From a bacterium (lineage in GTDB: Bacteria; SM23-81; DAOVCL01): a stretch of DNA of 17,360 bases. Positions 4,242 to 17,236 of the stretch are shown in pieces; the first letter of the stretch is position 1; every line of letters begins with the position of its first letter. Under the pieces are notes generated by a model, which ran no database searches, was not told where the DNA came from, and saw nothing but the letters and a program-made list of their open reading frames with translations. Location: the NCBI GenBank assembly GCA_029932675.1, contig JAOZPP010000074.1, positions 1 to 17,360 of the forward strand. The letters are read 5' to 3'. The position numbers and the translations under genes are program-made.

Positions 4242-4703
4242 TCATTTCTCTAACATCACCGTATCTATCGGTTTGGGCCCTTTCACCGAGAGAAAGGCGG
4301 CCGGTTCATCCCCGATATTCTCAAATGTATGGGGGATATCCATCTTTCCCTGGATCAGGTCCCCAGCCACGGCCACCAGTTCCTTATCGCCCACCTTAAA
4401 CCTGATCCTGCCCTTAACGATGAAGAAGAGCTCATCTGTTGTGGGATGCTTATGGAGGGGAACCCTCCTGCCTACGGGTAGGTTATAGATATAAGGTTGC
4501 ACCCCAGAGTAATCACCGAAGAAAGGGTTGACATCTACCTCATCTCCATAGGAGAGTTTCTGCCCATAGTGCATATGGATTAGCTCCTCTTCACCAGTGA
4601 TCTCCACGAATTTCTCCCGCGGTGCCCCACAATTGGGGCATTTCTCCGGCGGTTGGTCGCCGGTGTGCACATAGCCACAGACCGTGCAGCGCCACCTTTT
4701 CAT
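4242..4703 (-). CDS. Rubredoxin-like domain fused to a cupin domain
   Basis: The 153-residue protein starts with a short rubrerythrin-type rubredoxin knuckle, CTVCG (Cys6, Cys9) and CPNCG (Cys22, Cys25), that should bind one iron. A cupin-2 barrel follows (about residues 70-145). It has the metal-ligand pattern His84, His86, Glu91 in HKHPTTDELFFIVKG, and His125 in IPHTF. A mononuclear metal next to an FeS4 site suggests an oxidoreductase or a reactive-oxygen sensor/scavenger, but no substrate can be named. The start ATG follows GGGGGAGGTAAG. It is first in a putative three-gene unit with the cytochrome b-like and DUF2769 genes (gaps 82 and 42 bases). A dyad lies upstream in the 233-base intergenic region. 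Confidence 0.85.
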   Translation of the reverse strand: MKRWRCTVCGYVHTGDQPPEKCPNCGAPREKFVEITGEEELIHMHYGQKLSYGDEVDVNPFFGDYSGVQPYIYNLPVGRRVPLHKHPTTDELFFIVKGRIRFKVGDKELVAVAGDLIQGKMDIPHTFENIGDEPAAFLSVKGPKPIDTVMLEK

Positions 4704-4771
4704 CTTACCTCCCCCCTTGGTTTAGCAGTCATTAGTAAAGGGCAGTGAAGTCGCACAACTTAAAGGCTATT

Positions 4772-8528: not shown

Positions 8529-10136
8529 TTAAAAGATGCGCTTGGGCTCGGTGACTATATCTACCAGAGCCGGCTTGGGGGATTGCAGGGCCTCCTTAAG
8601 CGCCCTCTCCAGTTGTTCTGATTGGCTCACCTTCCATCCCTCTCCTCCACAGTTGCGGGCATAGGTGGCGAAGTCGGGGTTGGTCAGCTCGGTGGCGAAC
8701 TTAGGGTATCCCTCTGTCCTCTGTTCCACGGTGATCATTGCTAACTCCCGGTTGTTCAAGAGGACGACGATGATATCGAGGTTGTTCTTCACCGCGGTGA
8801 GGAAGTCACCCATTACCTGGGTGAACCCTCCGTCACCGGTGAGGCAGATGACCTGTCGGTCGGGTTGGGCAAGCTTGGCCGCCAGGGCCGCGGGGAGGCC
8901 AAAGCCCATACTTCCCAGGTAGCCGGAGAGGAGCAGGTCCTGTTCTTCCTCCATCCGGAAGTTTCTGCCAAACCAGAAGGCATTATCACCTACATCAAGG
9001 GAAATGATGGCGTTGGGGGGAGCTAAATCCTCCAGGAGCCTCATTATGTACTGGGGCCTGAGCGGGGTCGCCTGAGGGTCAGCTTCCTTGTCCAGCTTTT
9101 CCTCCCAATCGGATTTGAGTCCCTTCACCTCATCCATAAACTTCCGCTCTCCCTTGGCCTCCACTAAGCCAATCAGCTTGGGGATCACCAACCGATTATC
9201 CCCCCAAAGGCCTAACTTCACCGGAAAACTTTTCGCTACCTTCATCGGATTTAGATCCACTTGGATGATGGGGGTGCTTCGGGGGATATCCGTCTGTTCG
9301 GAGAAGGAGGAGCCCAGGACAATGAGCAGGTCCGCGTGGTTCACCACCTGGCGGGCGGGTTGGGTGCCCGTATGGCCTAAGACCCCCAGCGATAAAGGGT
9401 GGCGTTCGGATATTATCCCCTTGGCGCGGAAGGTTGTTGCTATGGGAGCGGAGATCTTCCCAGCCAACTTCAACAGATCCCCCTTGGCCTGCTTGGCTCC
9501 CCATCCCGCGATGATCACCGGCCTCTCCGCTTGGTTGATCAGGGTAGCTGCTTGCTTCAGGGCCTGCTCAGGGGGTTCAACGGAGAAAGCGGGAAAAGAC
9601 CCCTCCCAGGGCTGCGGCTGTAGCTCCCAGGGTTCCTTCTGCACATCATTGGGAATGGCCAGATGGGATACTCCACCTTCGGTGAGGGCATGCTTTAAGG
9701 CCAGGATCACCAGTTCCCTGGTCTGTTCTTTAGCATTAATCGTCTTATTGAAGCCGGCAACTGGATGGAACAAGGCGTCTTGATCGATCTCCTGGAAGCT
9801 TCCTGGCCCCAGGTATTGGAGTTTTACCTGACCGGTGATGGCCAGGACTGGGGCACCATCCATCTTAGCATCATAGAGCCCGGTGATTAAATTTGTGGCC
9901 CCTGGCCCGGCTATGGTCAAACATACCCCTACCCGTCCGGTGAGTTTGGCATAGGCTGAGGCCATAAAGGCAGCCACCTCTTCATGCCGCACTTGGATGA
10001 ACTTCACCTGGTCACTCCTGCGCAGCGCCTCCACTAACCCCAAGGCAGATGTGCCGGGCAGTCCAAAAACCCACTCCACCCCCCAGGCCGCCAACTGTTT
10101 AACGATGACATCGGAGACCGTGCTTTCCTTATCCAT
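8529..10136 (-). CDS. PoxB-like thiamine diphosphate enzyme (pyruvate oxidase/acetolactate synthase superfamily)
   Basis: The 535-residue protein has the three-domain TPP-enzyme layout. The N-terminal Pyr domain holds FGLPGTSALGLVEALR and the catalytic Glu52 in VRHEEVAAFMASAYAK. A central Rossmann-like domain spans about residues 190-330. The C-terminal PP domain holds the TPP-Mg motif GDG (434-436) to NN (461-462). Stretches such as IAGPGATNLITGLYDAKMDG and GSFQEIDQDALF are closest to pyruvate oxidase/pyruvate:quinone dehydrogenase. The membrane-binding C-terminal tail of E. coli PoxB is absent, so quinone coupling is doubtful; acetolactate synthase-like activity remains possible. The start follows GAGGTG. 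It is the last gene of the Fe-S operon, 68 bases after nifU, with a tiny bridging ORF in the gap. Its metabolic link to Fe-S assembly is unknown. Confidence 0.85.
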   Translation of the reverse strand: MDKESTVSDVIVKQLAAWGVEWVFGLPGTSALGLVEALRRSDQVKFIQVRHEEVAAFMASAYAKLTGRVGVCLTIAGPGATNLITGLYDAKMDGAPVLAITGQVKLQYLGPGSFQEIDQDALFHPVAGFNKTINAKEQTRELVILALKHALTEGGVSHLAIPNDVQKEPWELQPQPWEGSFPAFSVEPPEQALKQAATLINQAERPVIIAGWGAKQAKGDLLKLAGKISAPIATTFRAKGIISERHPLSLGVLGHTGTQPARQVVNHADLLIVLGSSFSEQTDIPRSTPIIQVDLNPMKVAKSFPVKLGLWGDNRLVIPKLIGLVEAKGERKFMDEVKGLKSDWEEKLDKEADPQATPLRPQYIMRLLEDLAPPNAIISLDVGDNAFWFGRNFRMEEEQDLLLSGYLGSMGFGLPAALAAKLAQPDRQVICLTGDGGFTQVMGDFLTAVKNNLDIIVVLLNNRELAMITVEQRTEGYPKFATELTNPDFATYARNCGGEGWKVSQSEQLERALKEALQSPKPALVDIVTEPKRIF

Positions 10137-10215
10137 CGGAGATCACCTCTTTAACATCCTCCCATAACCCCAACTGGGCAAAGGAAGGGTGCACTAACTT
10201 AAAGTTATTTCCCAT
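10129..10215 (-). CDS. Possible 28-residue coupling peptide between nifU and the TPP enzyme gene
   Basis: The frame starts at ATG 10215, overlapping the nifU 3' end by 11 bases, and ends at TAA 10129-10131, overlapping the start of the TPP enzyme gene by 8 bases. It therefore exactly bridges the gap and could couple translation of the two genes. The peptide (MGNNFKLVHPSFAQLG and so on) has no recognised family, and its SD (AAAGCGAG) is poor. The downstream gene has its own GAGGTG site. It may be chance. Confidence 0.2.
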   Translation of the reverse strand: MGNNFKLVHPSFAQLGLWEDVKEVISDG

Positions 10216-10591
10216 CTCGCTTTTTCCTATAATCCCTGATTGCCTCATGGAGGGCATCTGCGGCCAGATTAGAGCAATGCATCTTCTGGGGGGGAAGGCC
10301 GTCGAGTTCATCGGCCACATCATTACGGGTAACCTTCATCGCCTCTTCGATGGACATTCCCTTGACCATCTCAGTGACCATACTACTGGTTGCTATGGCG
10401 GAACCGCAGCCAAAGGTCTTGAACTTTATATCGGTGATGATGCCATCCTTCACCCTAATGAACATCTCCATAAGATCCCCACAGACCGGGTTCCCCACCT
10501 TTCCATACCCATCTGCATCCTCTATGGTACCCACATTCCGTGGGTTCATAAAATGGTCCAACACCTTCTTGCTGTAGCCTATCTCTACCAT
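10205..10591 (-). CDS. nifU: NifU/IscU-type Fe-S cluster scaffold protein
   Basis: The 128-residue protein is a complete IscU-fold scaffold with the three cluster ligands Cys37 (NPVCGD, with Asp39), Cys62 (FGCGSAIA) and Cys106 (MHCSNLA). The PPQKMHC stretch stands in place of the LPPVKxHCS motif of IscU/NifU. It assembles [2Fe-2S]/[4Fe-4S] clusters in the cytoplasm using sulfur delivered by a NifS/IscS partner, which is encoded immediately upstream (21-base gap). AAGGGGGTG precedes the ATG. It lacks the C-terminal Nfu domain of full-length NifU; that domain is encoded separately at the head of the same operon (12406-12627). The unusual point is that its partner lacks the PLP lysine. Confidence 0.95.
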   Translation of the reverse strand: MVEIGYSKKVLDHFMNPRNVGTIEDADGYGKVGNPVCGDLMEMFIRVKDGIITDIKFKTFGCGSAIATSSMVTEMVKGMSIEEAMKVTRNDVADELDGLPPQKMHCSNLAADALHEAIRDYRKKRDGK

Positions 10592-10612
10592 CTACACACC
10601 CCCTTCATTCTA

Positions 10613-11770
10613 CTATAGCGCTGAGACCCTCCGCAACCTCTCCACCGTCTCTTTTACTGCCTCGGAGATCTTCGGTATCTCCTCAGGCCTATTTCCTCGA
10701 CCTAAGGTGAGCACCATTGAACCGTGGGCCTCCTCGTGTTTCAATCCAATGGCCAAGAGGACATGTGAGGGTTCCAAGGTCTTAGATGAACAGGCCGACC
10801 CTGTAGCCACTTGGATGTTATGGCGCATATCCATATTTAGCAGGATGCTCTCTCCCTCGATCCTACTGAACCGAAAGCTGGCGTGATGGGGGAGCCTTTG
10901 GGTGGGATGGCCGGTGAGGTAGGCTTCTTCGATCTTCAATATCTCCTCGATCAGCTTGTCCCTCATCTCCTTCAGTCTCCTGGCTTCTTCCCCCATCTCT
11001 GCCTGGGCAATCCTCGCTGCCTCCCCCATTCCCACGATGGCAAAAATGTTCTCCGTCCCTGACCTCAGCCCTCTCTCCTGACCCCCTCCAGGAAGGATGG
11101 GTTGAACCTTTACCTTTGGCCTAATGTAGAGCGCTCCAGCCCCCTGGGGGCCGTAGAAGTTGTTGGAGGAAAGGGTAAGCAGGTCTACCCCATCTGCTTG
11201 CACATCAATCGGTATACACCCCGCGGCGGCGGTGGCATCCACATGCAGGTATAGGCCCTTCTGGTGAACTACTTCTGCTATCTCCTTGATTGGTTCTATT
11301 GTCCCTATCTCGTTGTTGGCCATAATAATCGATGTTAGAATCGTATCCTCGGTGATGATCTCCCTTAACCGGCCAAGGTCAACGGTCCCGGTTGAGTTCA
11401 CTGGAGCGAGATGGAATTCAAACCCGCCCTTCTGCAGCTCCTTCATTGGGTTGAGAACAGAGATGTGTTCTATGGCACTTGCCACTACCTTCTTGCCCTT
11501 TTGGGCATTGCGTAGGGCAGTTCCCCTGATGGCTAAGTTGTTTGCCTCCGTTGCCCCGCTGGTGAAGATTATGCTTTCGGGTTCCTCGGCATTGATCAGC
11601 TTAGCTACCTCTTCCCTGGCCTCTTCCAGAGCTCTCCTGGCTTTCAAGCCCACTGAGTGGAGGGAGGAGGGGTTGCCAATGTTCTCCCCGAGATACGGCT
11701 GGGCGAACGCTACCACTCGGGGGTCAACCGGCCGAGCTGAGGCGTGATCTAAATGTATCCTCTTCCCCAT
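10613..11770 (-). CDS. NifS/IscS-fold protein lacking the PLP-binding lysine
   Basis: The start is ATG 11770, one base after the stop of the DsrE-like gene; an in-frame extension to 11812 lies inside that gene. The 385-residue protein has the full class-V aminotransferase fold and the active-loop Cys327 in GSACSSKTLEPSHVL. It keeps His102 (IEHISV) and Asp178 (HVDAT). The Schiff-base lysine that belongs in SAHK.YGPKG is replaced: the sequence reads SSNNFYGPQGAG with Asn204, encoded by AAC at 11159-11161. The Gln that stacks near PLP (VDATQ) is Ala181. The protein should therefore not be a PLP-dependent desulfurase. It closely resembles, as I recall it, the IscS homologue of Archaeoglobus fulgidus, which lacks this lysine, showed no desulfurase activity, and offers its loop Cys as ligand in an IscU complex. 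Its neighbours are the scaffold NifU, TusA and DsrE-like sulfur carriers. Confidence 0.92.
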   Translation of the reverse strand: MGKRIHLDHASARPVDPRVVAFAQPYLGENIGNPSSLHSVGLKARRALEEAREEVAKLINAEEPESIIFTSGATEANNLAIRGTALRNAQKGKKVVASAIEHISVLNPMKELQKGGFEFHLAPVNSTGTVDLGRLREIITEDTILTSIIMANNEIGTIEPIKEIAEVVHQKGLYLHVDATAAAGCIPIDVQADGVDLLTLSSNNFYGPQGAGALYIRPKVKVQPILPGGGQERGLRSGTENIFAIVGMGEAARIAQAEMGEEARRLKEMRDKLIEEILKIEEAYLTGHPTQRLPHHASFRFSRIEGESILLNMDMRHNIQVATGSACSSKTLEPSHVLLAIGLKHEEAHGSMVLTLGRGNRPEEIPKISEAVKETVERLRRVSAL

Positions 11771-11771
11771 C

Positions 11772-12131
11772 TTAGAAGCTAAGGACAGCATCGGCGTCCA
11801 AGGCAAGGTCATTTAAGGTGGCCGCCCCCACTATCTCTGCCCCGGGGATAAAATCCCCTCTGGGTATACCCAAGAGCTGGGTGCTCTGTTCACAGACAAA
11901 GAGCTTTACCCCGGAGGCCAAGGCCTGATCCATAACCTCCTTGAGGCTGGGGAAATCCCCCAACTTTACCTTCTCCGCCTCCCCCTTCTTCACCACCATT
12001 ACGCCTTTGATGAGGAAGATAATCGCCGCCTCCACCTCCATGGCTGCTGCAGTAGTGGCGAGGATGAACGGTGCATACAACCTCTCCGGGTTCTCCATCC
12101 CACTTGTCTGGATGTAGATGATCTTTTCCAT
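11772..12131 (-). CDS. DsrE/DsrF-like sulfur-relay protein
   Basis: The 119-residue alpha/beta protein matches the DsrE superfamily: an N-terminal strand IIYIQTSG, helix NPERLYAPFILATTAAAM, then LKEVMDQALASGVKLFVCEQS, and the C-terminal GAEIVGAATLNDLALDADAVLSF. The single Cys80 sits where sulfur-accepting cysteines occur in DsrE/TusD-type proteins. TusA-DsrE pairs exchange persulfide sulfur in sulfur-metabolising organisms. AGGAGAAC precedes the ATG. The gene is 9 bases after tusA, and its stop lies one base before the NifS-like start, so translation is likely coupled. I infer that it hands sulfur from TusA towards the NifS/NifU pair, or removes it. Confidence 0.85.
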   Translation of the reverse strand: MEKIIYIQTSGMENPERLYAPFILATTAAAMEVEAAIIFLIKGVMVVKKGEAEKVKLGDFPSLKEVMDQALASGVKLFVCEQSTQLLGIPRGDFIPGAEIVGAATLNDLALDADAVLSF

Positions 12132-12140
12132 TTTGTTCTC

Positions 12141-12383
12141 CTACTTCATCCTTTTTAAGTAAAATGTCAGAACTGTTCCTTCCTTCTCAAATTTGAGCAG
12201 TGCCTGCCCTGCCCTCTTAGCCCACCTCTTGATGTCCTCCTCAGCAGCAGGGTCATCGGCAACCACCTTGAGCACCTGGCCCACCTCTAAGTTTTCGAGC
12301 CCCTCCTTGGTCATAGAGATGGGCAGAGGGCAATAGAGGCCCAGACAATCCAATTCTACATCGGGGGTAATCTTTGAAGCCAT
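12141..12383 (-). CDS. tusA: TusA/SirA-family sulfur carrier
   Basis: The 80-residue protein has the TusA signature: ELDCLGLYCPLPI with the sulfur-carrying Cys18 in the CPxP motif and a second Cys13. It is followed by the two-layer fold ending in GTVLTFYLKRM. TusA proteins carry persulfide sulfur between enzymes, for tRNA thiolation, molybdenum cofactor synthesis or dissimilatory sulfur metabolism. Here it lies between Nfu and the DsrE-like gene (gaps 22 and 9 bases), so its likely job is sulfur delivery in Fe-S assembly, which the PLP-less NifS partner cannot generate from cysteine. A strong GAGGAGGTAATAG site precedes the ATG. Confidence 0.92.
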   Translation of the reverse strand: MASKITPDVELDCLGLYCPLPISMTKEGLENLEVGQVLKVVADDPAAEEDIKRWAKRAGQALLKFEKEGTVLTFYLKRMK

Positions 12384-12405
12384 AACTATTACCTCCTCAG
12401 GGCAA

Positions 12406-12627
12406 TCAGATGGAGACGACCTCTTTTACTTCGGGCACCTCCTCTTTTAAAATCTTTTCTATTCCCATCCTCAGGGTTATCTCGCTCATCGGGCATCCTC
12501 GGCAGACACCGGTTAGCTTTACGGTCACTACGCCATCCGGGCTGACTTCCACCAACTCCACATCACCTCCATCCGCTTGCAATGAAGGCCTGATTCTCTT
12601 TAGAGCAGCTTCTACTCTCTCCTTCAT
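12406..12627 (-). CDS. Nfu (NifU C-terminal domain) Fe-S carrier
   Basis: The 73-residue product is a stand-alone Nfu domain: RIRPSLQADGGDVELV at the start and the CxxC cluster-binding motif CRGCP (Cys42, Cys45) followed by the amphipathic helix SEITLRMGIEKIL. Dimeric Nfu binds a [4Fe-4S] cluster between subunits and passes it to target enzymes. It is the first gene of the Fe-S operon and follows GAGAGGAGGAG. The 220-base region before it carries hairpins and a direct repeat that could regulate the operon. Confidence 0.95.
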   Translation of the reverse strand: MKERVEAALKRIRPSLQADGGDVELVEVSPDGVVTVKLTGVCRGCPMSEITLRMGIEKILKEEVPEVKEVVSI

Positions 12628-12847: not shown

Positions 12848-14071
12848 TCAGAGAAGCCTCTTCTCCCCCTTTAACTTCCTTATCTCCGTAATATCCTGGG
12901 TTACCTCCAAACAACCGAGATAATCACCTCTTCTATCACGCACTGGAAAATACCTGATGTAGATCATCCTCCCCTGGAGGTTGAGCCAAAACTCCGCTAC
13001 ATCTCTCCGACCAGCTCGGAAATCATCCAATATCTGATTGACGAGGTGGATGCTCTTCTGGGGATGGCATTGCTGAACCTTGCGTCCGATGATCGCCTTC
13101 GTCCTTGGAAAGATCCGCTCCTTTGACTGGCTGAAGTAACGTACCCTGTCTTCTTTATCCACGAAGGTGATATCCACAGGGAGGGTATTGAGCAACATCT
13201 CCAGCTCTTCTTTGGAGAAGCCCCCCGTCTCCAGGTCAATTATCCCTTCTCTCCCCGGATGACGGAGGGGAGGTTGCTCCCCTTTGTCTTTCATATCTGC
13301 TGGTTGGGGGGTAAAGGGGCAATAGCCAAGGTCATCAAATTGTTCCCTCGCTTCCTTCCATTCGCCATCCTCTATTACCTGCAGAGCGGTGGGGAAGAGG
13401 ATCCTGTTCTCCTTGTAGAAGTGGTTGGAGAGGAATTCGAGGAGGGAAACCGTTGCCTCCGCGATTTCCCTCTTAAGATCGTCAAACCTTATACCCTGGC
13501 CTCTCTCGATGAGTTGGTGAATTCTCCTTTCCATCTCTCTTATCTTGTCGTGCTCCATCCACATAACCGCTGGGGGCTCGGTGACCCCGTGTCTCTCTAG
13601 GTAGGGGAAGAGGACATTCTCCTCCCGCAGATAATGGCTCTCCGCCCCCTCCAATTGTCCTATGAACTGGCTTAATTCCCTCTGAAACCCTTCCCCCACG
13701 GAAGCGGAGGCCTTTCCTTGTTTCATCCCCTCAACTGTCCTCTTGAGCCGATCGGCGAGCTGGAGTATTAGCTTGTGTTCCTCCATAAGGATATGCACTG
13801 GATGCCATCCCGGTGCTGAGATCTCCACCTTCTCCAAGGATTCCCGCATTAAGGCTAGGTGGACATTGCAGAGCTTCTGGATCTCCTCCCGAGGCATTCC
13901 CCCCTTGATTAACTCCTCCTCCACCTGAGAGACCTGAAGAGGTGTAATCTCCTCTATTATTCCCCTCAGCTCTTCCTTTATCACCTCGGGGTCTGTCCCT
14001 TGATGTAACCTCTTTATTACCTCCCTCAGGGCTTCTACCTTATCCTCTCTCCTTTTGGATAGATCTTTCAT
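12848..14071 (-). CDS. DUF438-hemerythrin-PAS protein
   Basis: The 407-residue protein has three parts. An N-terminal DUF438 helical domain covers about residues 10-85. A hemerythrin-like HHE domain (about 88-235) has candidate di-iron ligands His90, His99, His146, Glu150, His174, His217 and Glu221 in WHPVHILMEEH, SHYLREENVLFPYLE, WMEHDKI and NHFYKENRILFP. A C-terminal PAS domain covers about 288-400. The PAS carries the QQCHPQKSIHLVNQIL motif typical of this architecture; the Cys-His could bind heme or metal, which is inference. Such proteins are common in strict anaerobes and are thought to sense or scavenge O2 or NO. No kinase or output domain follows. GGAGGATAGGAAG precedes the ATG, and the gene lies 33 bases after the rubrerythrin-like gene, suggesting one stress operon. 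Confidence 0.9.
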   Translation of the reverse strand: MKDLSKRREDKVEALREVIKRLHQGTDPEVIKEELRGIIEEITPLQVSQVEEELIKGGMPREEIQKLCNVHLALMRESLEKVEISAPGWHPVHILMEEHKLILQLADRLKRTVEGMKQGKASASVGEGFQRELSQFIGQLEGAESHYLREENVLFPYLERHGVTEPPAVMWMEHDKIREMERRIHQLIERGQGIRFDDLKREIAEATVSLLEFLSNHFYKENRILFPTALQVIEDGEWKEAREQFDDLGYCPFTPQPADMKDKGEQPPLRHPGREGIIDLETGGFSKEELEMLLNTLPVDITFVDKEDRVRYFSQSKERIFPRTKAIIGRKVQQCHPQKSIHLVNQILDDFRAGRRDVAEFWLNLQGRMIYIRYFPVRDRRGDYLGCLEVTQDITEIRKLKGEKRLL

Positions 14072-14104: not shown

Positions 14105-14632
14105 TTAAAAGGTCCATTCCTCTCTCTCAAACCACTGGGCGGGGTTCTCCAAGAGTTGGAGGGAATTGTCCAAGATCTGATAGTGTTCCCGCTCCATATC
14201 GGCCATAAACTGGTAGAAGCGCTTGGCCTCATCGTCGGAGGCCTTCTCCGCCCGCTCTTGGTAAAAGCCCACCAGCTTGTCCTCGATATCCTTTGCCGTT
14301 TGATAAGCCTCCAGATCATCAGCACTTGCCCTTACAGTTCGGTCAATCTCCTCCCGCAGCTCCTGAAAGATGGTCTTAAATGTATCAATAGCTTCCCCCT
14401 TCTTGGGTAAAGCCCCCTCAGCCGACTCCCATCTACCCTTCTCCATAAGCGAGGAGTGGAACCGTTCAATAACTTTCATATGCTTCAGCTCCCAGTCGGC
14501 CAGGGAATGGAAGGTCTTCTTGGCCAACGGATGGGAAGCCTTCCCTGCAACCTCTAAGTAGAACTTCCGCCCCTCGCCCTCCATCTTCAGGGCCAACTGC
14601 AAGGCATCCAAATCGGCCTTCTTTGAATCCAT
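14105..14632 (-). CDS. Rubrerythrin-like ferritin-family di-iron protein
   Basis: The 175-residue four-helix protein carries a symmetrical di-iron site: Glu18/Glu20 (LKMEGEGRKFYLE), ExxH in DWELKHM (Glu48, His51), Glu117 (AKDIEDKLVGFY), and ExxH in MEREHYQIL (Glu147, His150). It ends in NPAQWFEREEWTF, a common tail of this family. Unlike classical rubrerythrin it has no C-terminal rubredoxin domain, so electrons must come from a separate carrier. The likely role is peroxide reduction in the cytoplasm. GGAGGGTAAAAAA precedes the ATG. Its operon partner downstream is the DUF438-hemerythrin protein. Confidence 0.9.
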   Translation of the reverse strand: MDSKKADLDALQLALKMEGEGRKFYLEVAGKASHPLAKKTFHSLADWELKHMKVIERFHSSLMEKGRWESAEGALPKKGEAIDTFKTIFQELREEIDRTVRASADDLEAYQTAKDIEDKLVGFYQERAEKASDDEAKRFYQFMADMEREHYQILDNSLQLLENPAQWFEREEWTF

Positions 14633-14787: not shown

Positions 14788-14988
14788 TTATTTTCTACTT
14801 GGGGTATATCCCACCTCCCGAATGGCCCCTTCGACCTCCTCCAGGCTTAACTCACCATCTACACCCACAGTCCTTTTATCCAGATTAACCAATATCCCTT
14901 TGACCCCAGCGATCCCGCGCAGCTTCTTCTCAATAGTCATCTGACAGTGTTTGCAGGTCATATCCGGAACATAGAGTTCGTATCTCAT
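14788..14988 (-). CDS. Possible internal start producing a free HMA metallochaperone
   Basis: Inside the permease gene, ATG at 14988 (Met338) is preceded by AAAGAGGTG at 6-base spacing, as good a ribosome binding site as those of the independent genes here. Initiation there would give a 66-residue protein that is exactly one HMA domain (YELYVPDMTCKHCQ onward), equivalent to a CopZ-type copper chaperone. Full-length and short forms could both be made, as is known by other means for E. coli copA. This is a prediction from sequence; the SD-like bases also encode Lys-Glu-Val of the linker. Confidence 0.4.
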   Translation of the reverse strand: MRYELYVPDMTCKHCQMTIEKKLRGIAGVKGILVNLDKRTVGVDGELSLEEVEGAIREVGYTPSRK

Positions 14989-15999
14989 TGATTTCACCTC
15001 TTTTCCGCTTCCTCTGTAAAGACCCCTCAAGATGATGATGAGGAGGATCACCCCCGCTAATAGCCTCAAGGAGAGGGGAAGCCCGCTGCCTTGGGGGGAG
15101 ATAAGGCTCACATCCCCACCCAGGCTAAGCCAGAGAAGGTTGAATACCCAACCGATTAATAGGGAGATCAGGATGATGAAGGAAAGGTAGATGTAGAAAG
15201 CCCTCCTGCCCAATTTGGAATAGACGAAGGAGAGGGTCACCGTATTGGTGGCGGGACCAGCAATGAGGAAGACCAGGGCGGCCCCTGGAGAGAAGCCCTT
15301 ACCGATGAGGGCGGCAGCAATGGGAATGGAACCGGTAGCACAGACATAGAGTGGAATTCCCAGGGCTAACATCACCAAATAGTGGAGAGAGGGATGGGAG
15401 AGATAGCGGGTCAACAGTTCTTCGGGGATGGCCACGGTGAGGATCCCCCCCAGGAGCGCCCCTACCAGGAGCCATTTTCCGATTTCTGCGGCAAGTTCTA
15501 TAAAGCCATAGCGGAGGGCCTCTTTTACCCTAAATGGGGAAGACAACCATGGATGGGTATGGGAGGTGGGTTTCTCCACCTTCTCTGGATTGAAGAGCCA
15601 GTTGAAGATTCCGATGGTCAACCCGTTGAGGAAGGCAGCCAGGGGGCGGAAGATAGCAAATAAGGGGCCAAGCAATGAATAGGTAGCCAAGATTGAGTCC
15701 ACCCCTGTTGTTGGGGTGGAGACAAGGAAGGAAAGCACTGAGCTCTTGCTGGCCCCTTCTTTCTTTAGGGATGCTGCTACTGGGATGACCCCACAGGAGC
15801 AAAGGGGGAGAGGGATGCCGAAGAGGGTTGCCTTCAGGATAGATCTTGGCCCACTACCGCCTAAGTGCCGTCCAATAAACCTCGCCCCTAAAAAGGAATG
15901 GAGGAGCCCAGCGATGAACATCCCCAAGAGCAGGTAGGGGGCGATCGCCAGCCAAAGTTTGACTGACTCCATAAGGAAAGCATAGATTAAATGGAGCAT
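14788..15999 (-). CDS. CSCG-motif metal permease (SO_0444/ArsP-like family) with C-terminal HMA domain
   Basis: The 403-residue protein has about eight membrane helices in two similar halves. The first half contains the CSCG motif (Cys67, Cys69 in PLPLCSCGVIPVAASL). The second contains the related YVCATGSIPIAAALIGKG near residue 220, with GPATNTVTL after it. This fits the DUF318/ArsP permease family, including SO_0444-type Cu/Zn efflux transporters. Residues 338-403 form an HMA domain with the metal site MTCKHC, a Cu/Zn-binding ferredoxin-like fold that would deliver metal from the cytoplasm. The substrate is inferred as copper, zinc or possibly an organo-arsenical. The ATG is one base after the flavodiiron stop codon, so translation of the two genes is probably coupled. 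An internal SD and ATG directly precede the HMA domain. Confidence 0.88.
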   Translation of the reverse strand: MLHLIYAFLMESVKLWLAIAPYLLLGMFIAGLLHSFLGARFIGRHLGGSGPRSILKATLFGIPLPLCSCGVIPVAASLKKEGASKSSVLSFLVSTPTTGVDSILATYSLLGPLFAIFRPLAAFLNGLTIGIFNWLFNPEKVEKPTSHTHPWLSSPFRVKEALRYGFIELAAEIGKWLLVGALLGGILTVAIPEELLTRYLSHPSLHYLVMLALGIPLYVCATGSIPIAAALIGKGFSPGAALVFLIAGPATNTVTLSFVYSKLGRRAFYIYLSFIILISLLIGWVFNLLWLSLGGDVSLISPQGSGLPLSLRLLAGVILLIIILRGLYRGSGKEVKSMRYELYVPDMTCKHCQMTIEKKLRGIAGVKGILVNLDKRTVGVDGELSLEEVEGAIREVGYTPSRK

Positions 16000-16000
16000 A

Positions 16001-17182
16001 TCATCCTTGCTTGAGAATATTAGCCAATTCCTCCCCTTTCTCCCTCACCCCATCCAATTCCCTCTCCTCGGGCACCCATTGGAGGTTCACCCCGGAGAGA
16101 GGGATCCGCCAATTCAGCTCCCTCATCACCTTCTCGATCTCACCTACCGCTTGCCCACCCCAGCCATAGGAGCCGAAGGCGAAACCTATCCTTGTCTTTG
16201 GACGCAATCCCTTGAGATAAGTAAGGAAAGCCCCCATAGAGGGAAGCATCCCGTTATTTAGGGTGGGTGAACCAATCAAGATGAGCTTAGCGCGGAGTAC
16301 ATCGGCCATCACCGCGGAGATGTGGTTGGTCTTCAGGCTCTTCATCGTCACCGGCAGGCCTGCAGCCTCCAGGGCCTGGCACAGGCTTTGGGCTATCTTC
16401 TCAGTGGAGCCCCACATGGTGTCATAGACAATCACCGCCCTTTGCTCCGCCTCGTTTGCCGCCCATCTATAGTAAGCGTCGAGGATTTTAGAGAGGTAAC
16501 TTCGCCAGATCAGCCCGTGGCTGGGAGCGACCATATCGATATCCAGCCCAGAGACGGCATCCAGCGCCTTCTTCACTTGCTCACCATAGGGGAGGACGAT
16601 ATTGGCGTAATATTTGGCTGCCTCCTCATAGGCGATGTCCCAGCCCACCTCATCGTCAAACCTCTCCGCCGTGGCAATGTGCTGCCCGAAGGCATCATTG
16701 GGCAAAAGCAGCTTTTCCTCGGGGATGTATGTGGCCATTGAATCTGGCCAGTGGACCATGGGAGTAAGAAGGAACTTCAGGGTGCGTTGACCGATTTTCA
16801 CCTCATCCCCAGATCCAACCACCTGAAAGTCCCAATCAGCCGTGAAGTGCCTCCTCAGGCCCTTTTCGCCCTGAGGGGAGCTAATCACCTTGGCCTGGGG
16901 GGCAAGCTCCAAAATTCGGGAGATGCTTCCTGAATGGTCCATCTCTACATGGTTGGAGACCAGGAAGTCTATCCGCGCGGGGTCGATAACCTGACGGATG
17001 CGGGAGAGCATCTCCTCGCAGAGGTAGTGCTTCACCGTATCCACCAAGACAGGTTTCTCATCGATGATTAGATAAGCATTGTAGGTAGAACCCCTCTGGG
17101 TAAGGTAACCATGGAAATTACGCAGATCCCAGTCGATTCCCCCTACCCAATAGATCCCTGGCTTTATCTCTACAGGTTTCAT
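16001..17182 (-). CDS. fprA: Flavodiiron protein (FprA, O2/NO reductase)
   Basis: The start is ATG 17182 with GGAGG upstream; an in-frame TTG at 17197 overlaps that site and is less likely. The 393-residue protein has the metallo-beta-lactamase domain with the complete di-iron ligand set His78, Glu80, Asp82, His83 (NHVEMDHSG), His144, Asp163 and His222. A C-terminal flavodoxin domain follows with the FMN loop YDTMWGSTEKIA (about 253-264). This is the basic two-domain class A form, which reduces O2 to water and/or NO to N2O in the cytoplasm of anaerobes, with electrons from rubredoxin or F420. The rubredoxin-cupin protein here might be one donor, though its domain is of the short type. It lies 54 bases after a ferritin-like gene and is coupled to the metal permease gene. 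Confidence 0.95.
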   Translation of the reverse strand: MKPVEIKPGIYWVGGIDWDLRNFHGYLTQRGSTYNAYLIIDEKPVLVDTVKHYLCEEMLSRIRQVIDPARIDFLVSNHVEMDHSGSISRILELAPQAKVISSPQGEKGLRRHFTADWDFQVVGSGDEVKIGQRTLKFLLTPMVHWPDSMATYIPEEKLLLPNDAFGQHIATAERFDDEVGWDIAYEEAAKYYANIVLPYGEQVKKALDAVSGLDIDMVAPSHGLIWRSYLSKILDAYYRWAANEAEQRAVIVYDTMWGSTEKIAQSLCQALEAAGLPVTMKSLKTNHISAVMADVLRAKLILIGSPTLNNGMLPSMGAFLTYLKGLRPKTRIGFAFGSYGWGGQAVGEIEKVMRELNWRIPLSGVNLQWVPEERELDGVREKGEELANILKQG

Positions 17183-17236
17183 ACCAACCTCCAACAAATT
17201 TTTTCTACCCTCCTTCCTCAGGAGAAAAGAGGAGCG

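Follow-up and report, generated by a model that had tools for sequence, protein, structure and literature searches.

A lysine-less NifS homologue in an operon with TusA and DsrE-like sulfur carriers: a candidate desulfurase-free module for iron-sulfur cluster assembly

How does an IscU-type scaffold obtain its sulfur when the NifS-type protein encoded beside it lacks the catalytic lysine of cysteine desulfurases? The question is raised by a 17,360-nucleotide contig (JAOZPP010000074.1, assembly GCA_029932675.1; hereafter the window) of a bacterium of the GTDB lineage SM23-81; DAOVCL01. Its minus strand carries the genes nfu, tusA, dsrE-like, nifS and iscU, in the order stated by an earlier reading made from the letters and open reading frames (ORFs) of the window, hereafter the sequence-only reading. 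Lysine-less NifS-type proteins are found beside sulfur-carrier genes in more than 100 archaea and bacteria, and working ones almost never are. We think it fairly probable that the operon is a module for iron-sulfur (Fe-S) assembly free of desulfurase, in which the NifS-type protein is not used as a cysteine desulfurase. Structures of lysine-less IscS had already posed the question of the sulfur source; the conserved partnership with TusA and DsrE would give it a specific and testable answer, valid in Archaeoglobus fulgidus itself.

The active site of the lysine-less protein and its known relatives

We compared the residues of 81 lysine-less proteins of the window type (clade I), 17 other lysine-less proteins (clade II) and 42 lysine-bearing proteins. 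In the window NifS, Asn203-Asn204 stand for the His-Lys pair that binds pyridoxal 5'-phosphate (PLP), Ala181 for Gln and Val353 for Arg. It keeps His102, Asp178 and Cys327, which correspond to His104, Asp180 and the loop Cys328 of Escherichia coli IscS. The two Asn with the coordinates of their AAC AAC codons, Ala181 and the intact Cys327 had been described in the sequence-only reading, and all were confirmed from the sequence and the alignments; the loss of the active-site Arg had been absent from it and is added here. Position 353 lies 26 residues past the loop Cys and matches E. coli Arg354. In the lysine-bearing set, the equivalents of Lys206, His205 and Gln183 and the Arg at window position 353 are all 100% conserved. 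In clade I, these sites are occupied by Asp, Gln, Ala, Asn or Glu (Lys), Asn, Ser or Thr (His), Ala, Asp or Ile (Gln), and Val or Ile (Arg). His102, Asp178 and Cys327 are kept in 96-100% of these proteins, and Cys327 is invariant in both clade I and the lysine-bearing set. The Lys site of clade I is Asp in 88% of proteins and Asn in 1%; because Asn is so rare there, we regard N204 of the window as a local departure from the usual Asp. The sequence-only reading had held that the substitution is no error, and this stands: sequencing error, a pseudogene and chance are ruled out by lysine-less homologues at more than 80 loci in many phyla, with the Cys invariant.

Among the residues that define an active type I desulfurase, the window NifS has the loop Cys, the His and the Asp, and lacks the Lys, the Arg and the equivalents of Gln183 and His205. 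It also scores below the NCBIfam equivalog cut-offs (431.6 against 530.75 bits for NifS, 384.3 against 643.2 bits for IscS). Since the catalytic residues were lost jointly, PLP-dependent cysteine desulfuration by this protein seems very unlikely. Could it still be an enzyme, with pyridoxamine 5'-phosphate (PMP) or PLP bound non-covalently, for another reaction or for slow catalysis in which His102 acts as base? The conservation of T74, H102, D178 and T239 in clade I would fit such a function, and E. coli IscS K206A retains some PLP and accumulates intermediates (PMC9978102). Yet the same variant has no desulfurase activity (PMC9978102), none of the Lys, Gln, His and Arg353 residues is kept, with almost all members lacking Lys and Arg together, and the residue at the Lys position (D, N, E, Q, A, S, T, R, H, G, L) is freely variable, which one would not expect of a catalytic site put to a new use. 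We therefore consider a remaining enzymatic function improbable.

The closest solved structure is that of A. fulgidus IscS (4eb5; E 1.7e-137, 57% identity over 376 columns), which falls in one clade with the window NifS (support 100/99) in a tree made without the active-site columns. The likeness to this protein proposed in the sequence-only reading is thus real and, judging from identity and phylogeny, is one of orthology. Both proteins have the Lys replaced, Ala in place of Gln, the loop Cys kept and iscU adjoining (PDB 4eb5, 4eb7 and 4hvk; 4r5f is A. fulgidus IscS with Lys at the site). They differ in that A. fulgidus IscS reads SSND and the window NifS SSNN, with Asn204 for Asp, and in the bacterial host, the nfu gene of the operon and the oxygen-stress neighbours of the window. 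According to PMC7585200, A. fulgidus IscS is devoid of desulfurase activity because an Asp replaces the lysine, and one of its cysteines ligates the cluster on IscU; that paper, in citing the A. fulgidus work, does not describe an involvement of TusA or DsrE. The catalytic lysine is also missing from IscS1 of Methanosarcina acetivorans, which is encoded with IscU1 (MA0808/MA0807) in a cluster with four more genes of unknown function, not named there (PMC7585200). The lysine-less enzyme as such is therefore already known, since A. fulgidus IscS and M. acetivorans IscS1 share the loss.

Sulfur-carrier genes beside lysine-less nifS

We counted tusA or dsrE as linked when it lay on the same strand within 1.5 kb of nifS. 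On this basis, tusA is linked at 74 of the 81 clade I and 13 of the 17 clade II loci (87/98 lysine-less loci overall), and dsrE at 72 and 8 of them, respectively (80/98), against none of the 42 lysine-bearing loci for either gene (Fisher tests of all lysine-less against lysine-bearing loci, relatedness ignored: p = 7.5e-26 for tusA and 9.1e-22 for dsrE). The sequence-only reading had set this linkage beforehand as the point on which its interpretation could fail. Background proximity of tusA or dsrE to any nifS is ruled out by the controls (0/42), and because 20 of these are paralogues from genomes that also carry clade I loci, the host background does not explain the difference. Two further samples agree with the linkage: 26 of 28 lysine-less loci of Methanosarcinia (the class of a Methanotrichaceae genome), and all 27 loci of a phylum-wide search with the A. 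fulgidus protein, both A. fulgidus paralogues included. A few loci are exceptions. Among lysine-bearing ones, L207 has a tusA-like gene 1.35 kb away, L272, which has lost the His and Gln sites, has a weak tusA match, and L338, described below, has a lysine-bearing fragment divergent from tusA. Six lysine-less loci (L145, L233, L238, L241, L283 and L299) are without tusA or dsrE in the available sequence.

The partnership was described as new in the sequence-only reading, but A. fulgidus itself has the same arrangement. In a genome that we take to be A. fulgidus, since it encodes a protein 100% identical to the crystallised one, a dsrE-like gene directly precedes the gene of this protein and iscU follows it. 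A lysine-less paralogue, 87% identical to the crystallised protein, is surrounded by tusA, dsrE and iscU. A link of TusA or DsrE to lysine-less IscS was not found in the open PubMed Central literature; an earlier notice elsewhere is possible.

The gene order is tusA-dsrE-nifS-iscU in clade I, and nfu-dsrE-nifS-iscU-tusA or nifS-dsrE-tusA in clade II. Since the orders differ, the partnership survived rearrangement. The partner proteins keep their key residues: Cys18 is present in 77/77 aligned TusA and Cys80 in 74/74 aligned DsrE proteins, and the cluster ligands are present in every full-length IscU aligned. Some clade II DsrE-like proteins are without the CxxS form of the motif. Two locus types stand out in their layout. 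At the Methanoculleus-type loci L118-L122, the lysine-less NifS reads SGNQ and the operon has two or three consecutive tusA-like frames. At L338, where the operon reads tusA-dsrE-nifS(lysine-less)-iscU, a fragment of a lysine-bearing nifS lies divergently right next to tusA, a layout that would suit a carrier fed by an active desulfurase.

A single origin of the two large lysine-less clades is compatible with the data (100-row tree, approximately unbiased test, p = 0.73). Two other proteins, those of L230 (Lys to Leu; 7104-5809, minus strand) and L252 (Lys to Thr), are nested among lysine-bearing proteins and represent further losses. Both keep the active-site Arg; tusA adjoins both genes, and dsrE also adjoins that of L252. 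The trees thus point to at least three separate losses of the lysine (clades I and II, L230 and L252), each with tusA adjacent. L230 and L252 look like an early stage in which the lysine was lost first and the Arg would follow, and are possible intermediates. The two large clades, L230 and L252 together rule out a quirk of a single lineage. An independent-pairs test had only 2-3 pairs, so that significance was out of reach with about three independent events.

A possible sulfur route and its main rival

DsrE-family proteins take sulfur from TusA. In the route that we propose, TusA would be loaded with persulfide elsewhere, and its sulfane sulfur would reach an IscU bound to the catalytically dead NifS dimer, by way of the DsrE-like protein if there is one. 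The loop residue Cys327 of NifS could then pass the persulfide on or, as A. fulgidus IscS is reported to do, act for a time as ligand of the [2Fe-2S] cluster being formed. In the E. coli IscS-TusA-TusBCD relay, TusA docks on the IscS fold (3lvj and 3lvk contain both chains) and IscS loads TusA; any flow in the window would have to run the opposite way, because its NifS cannot be expected to make persulfide from cysteine.

The sequence-only reading had derived the persulfide from the metabolism of sulfide or thiosulfate. This part is unsupported: no match to the rhodanese family was found in the host genome, which leaves the rhodanese/thiosulfate route without support, and a lysine-bearing NifS is an equally good source. 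Such a protein is encoded in the host on contig C98 (L135:8718-9992), with a second iscU (4322-4741) about 4 kb away, and the two probably serve the routine Fe-S assembly of the host. Given its presence and the lack of a rhodanese match, it is plausible, by analogy with E. coli IscS, that a lysine-bearing NifS loads TusA. The likely loader in the host would be this NifS or a second TusA-DsrE pair near HdrA/MvhD-type genes. Overall, the interpretation given in the sequence-only reading is partly supported.

The main rival, which we judge unlikely, is that free sulfide is used directly. IscU on the lysine-less NifS would then combine Fe2+ and S2- into clusters to which Cys327 contributes a ligand, and TusA and DsrE would serve another pathway, such as tRNA thiolation or sulfur respiration, that merely shares the operon. 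The account of the A. fulgidus IscS-IscU complex in PMC7585200 suits it: a cysteine of IscS ligates the cluster, and IscS supplies no sulfur. The related minimal system SMS (SmsBC) assembles Fe-S clusters from sulfide, without a cysteine desulfurase, on an unrelated scaffold of the SufBC type (PMC12192291), and many carriers of lysine-less genes are anaerobic archaea. What speaks against direct use of sulfide is that in different phyla, in two or more gene orders and at each independent loss, tusA, dsrE or both stay beside lysine-less nifS, and that they are absent beside lysine-bearing nifS. The operon also resembles the minimal iron-sulfur system (MIS, MisS-MisU), which pairs an IscS-type protein with an IscU-type scaffold in anaerobic prokaryotes; it differs from it in that MIS is described with a cysteine desulfurase (PMC12192291), whereas the operon has lost the desulfurase residues and has Nfu, TusA and DsrE in addition.

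Several observations weigh against assembly fed by TusA and DsrE. T74, H102, D178 and T239, which hold the phosphate and ring of the cofactor, are kept in clade I, so the pocket may still bind PMP or PLP. Many loci found with the A. fulgidus query have no dsrE, so the complete TusA-DsrE-NifS chain is not a fixed requirement. Genomes of relatives do not count as independent cases, and only about three independent losses back the association. The oxygen-stress neighbours described below are scarce in clade II and in A. fulgidus-query loci with wide flanks. Finally, both the direction of sulfur flow and the action of TusA and DsrE on lysine-less NifS are read from gene neighbourhoods.

A more general proposal, in which our confidence is somewhat short of even, is that these loci form a widespread and so far undescribed class of Fe-S modules in archaea and bacteria. 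In it, TusA, often with DsrE, would have taken over from cysteine desulfuration the local supply of sulfur to IscU, and on at least three occasions NifS would have shed its catalytic residues alongside the carriers and become a docking or relay subunit. If so, IscU-type assembly does not everywhere draw its sulfur from cysteine desulfuration, the annotation "cysteine desulfurase" is wrong for these genes in many archaea and bacteria, and a cysteine-independent route may let anaerobes build or repair Fe-S clusters under oxygen stress.

The operon, its neighbourhood and other sulfur genes of the host

Every gene of the operon scores above the curated Pfam cut-off of its own family, and the intergenic gaps from nfu to iscU are 22, 9, 1 and 21 nucleotides (nt). 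The window TusA scores 54.3 bits against the NCBIfam TusA equivalog, under its cut-off of 78, and the nearest PDB chain of the DsrE-like protein is 3mc3 (E 7e-20). For nifS, the mechanical ORF begins at ATG 11812 (399 amino acids, aa). We favour ATG 11770 as the start, because relatives start nearby and because it leaves a 1-nt gap after the dsrE stop; it also reproduces the earlier numbering (A181, N203-N204, C327). An nfu gene lies upstream at 8/81 clade I and 4/17 clade II loci. A scan for promoters and terminators gave nothing beyond chance level.

Table 1. Operon genes and neighbouring features of the window.
Feature	Positions	Strand	Description	Evidence or occurrence
nfu	12406..12627	-	Nfu-type carrier/scaffold, NifU C-terminal domain with CxxC, 73 aa	Pfam PF01106, 98.6 bits
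tusA	12141..12383	-	TusA-family sulfur carrier, 80 aa, CPLP motif, Cys18	Pfam PF01206, 82.3 bits (cut-off 28.6)
dsrE-like	11772..12131	-	DsrE-like sulfurtransferase, 119 aa, Cys80	Pfam PF02635, 74.9 bits (cut-off 22.7)
nifS	10613..11770	-	Lysine-less NifS/IscS-type protein, 385 aa	Sequence, alignments, 4eb5 match (E 1.7e-137)
AAC AAC codons	11159..11164	-	Asn203-Asn204 at the His-Lys PLP site	Sequence and alignment
iscU	10205..10591	-	IscU/NifU-N scaffold, 128 aa; C37, D39, C62, H105, C106 conserved	NCBIfam TIGR03419, 214.1 bits (cut-off 187.9)
DUF438-hemerythrin-PAS protein	12848..14071	-	O2/NO-type sensor or repair	Pfam; near 6/81 clade I and 1/17 clade II loci
Rubrerythrin-like protein	14105..14632	-	Diiron protein	Pfam PF02915; kind near 24/81 clade I loci
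Flavodiiron protein	16001..17197	-	FprA type	Pfam ODP and flavodoxin; near 26/81 clade I and 1/42 lysine-bearing loci
ArsP-type permease	14788..15999	-	C-terminal heavy-metal-associated domain	1 nt after the flavodiiron gene
Thiamine-diphosphate enzyme	8529..10136	-	Pyruvate oxidase/acetolactate synthase type	68 nt downstream of iscU; not a recurrent neighbour elsewhere

We clustered the ORFs around the 81 clade I loci and searched representatives with Pfam. The recurrent neighbours are desulfoferrodoxin, rubrerythrins, flavin reductase-rubredoxin, flavodiiron protein, a Fur-family regulator, prismane protein, ferritin and peroxiredoxin. At least one kind of oxygen-stress gene lies within 5.5 kb at 48/81 clade I loci, 2/17 clade II loci and 1/42 controls. 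In the window, which has flavodiiron, rubrerythrin-like and DUF438-hemerythrin-PAS genes upstream of the operon and ferritin and rubredoxin-cupin genes downstream, this neighbourhood had been absent from the sequence-only reading. Oxygen-stress and iron-storage genes are consistent with an anaerobe that assembles or repairs clusters when it has been exposed to oxidants. A universal oxygen-stress role is ruled out by the scarcity of such neighbours in clade II and the A. fulgidus-query loci; the weakness of the pattern in the latter suggests that oxygen stress is one use of the module, not its definition. The clade II locus L136 has the same kind of ArsP permease as the window, downstream of its operon, and a DUF438-hemerythrin-PAS gene.

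The same neighbourhood could suit a regulator or inhibitor, that is, a decoy that binds IscU or forms heterodimers with an active NifS and switches assembly under oxygen stress. Most of the relatives' genomes searched also have a lysine-bearing NifS, as such a role would lead one to expect. We nevertheless find it very improbable: the module comes with an IscU of its own in which all cluster ligands are conserved, and a decoy needs no invariant Cys327. The lysine-less protein is the only NifS-type match in 6 of 28 relatives' genomes. Three of the 6 have a SufS-type protein; in the other three, the draft genomes G060, G072 and G078, which may be incomplete, no other strong NifS or SufS was found, and this too speaks against a decoy.

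The host genome has further genes of sulfur and Fe-S metabolism. A SufBD-core gene lies beside an ABC-ATPase-like frame. On contig C9 (L130:1495-2113), the second tusA-dsrE pair lies by HdrA-like and MvhD-like frames, in what looks like a sulfur-energy-metabolism arrangement. On contig C46 (L002:379-2598), a lysine-bearing NifS-type desulfurase is fused to a selenide-water-dikinase-like (SelD) domain in a protein of 740 aa, and long NifS-SelD-like frames resembling it occur in other genomes, e.g., at L042.

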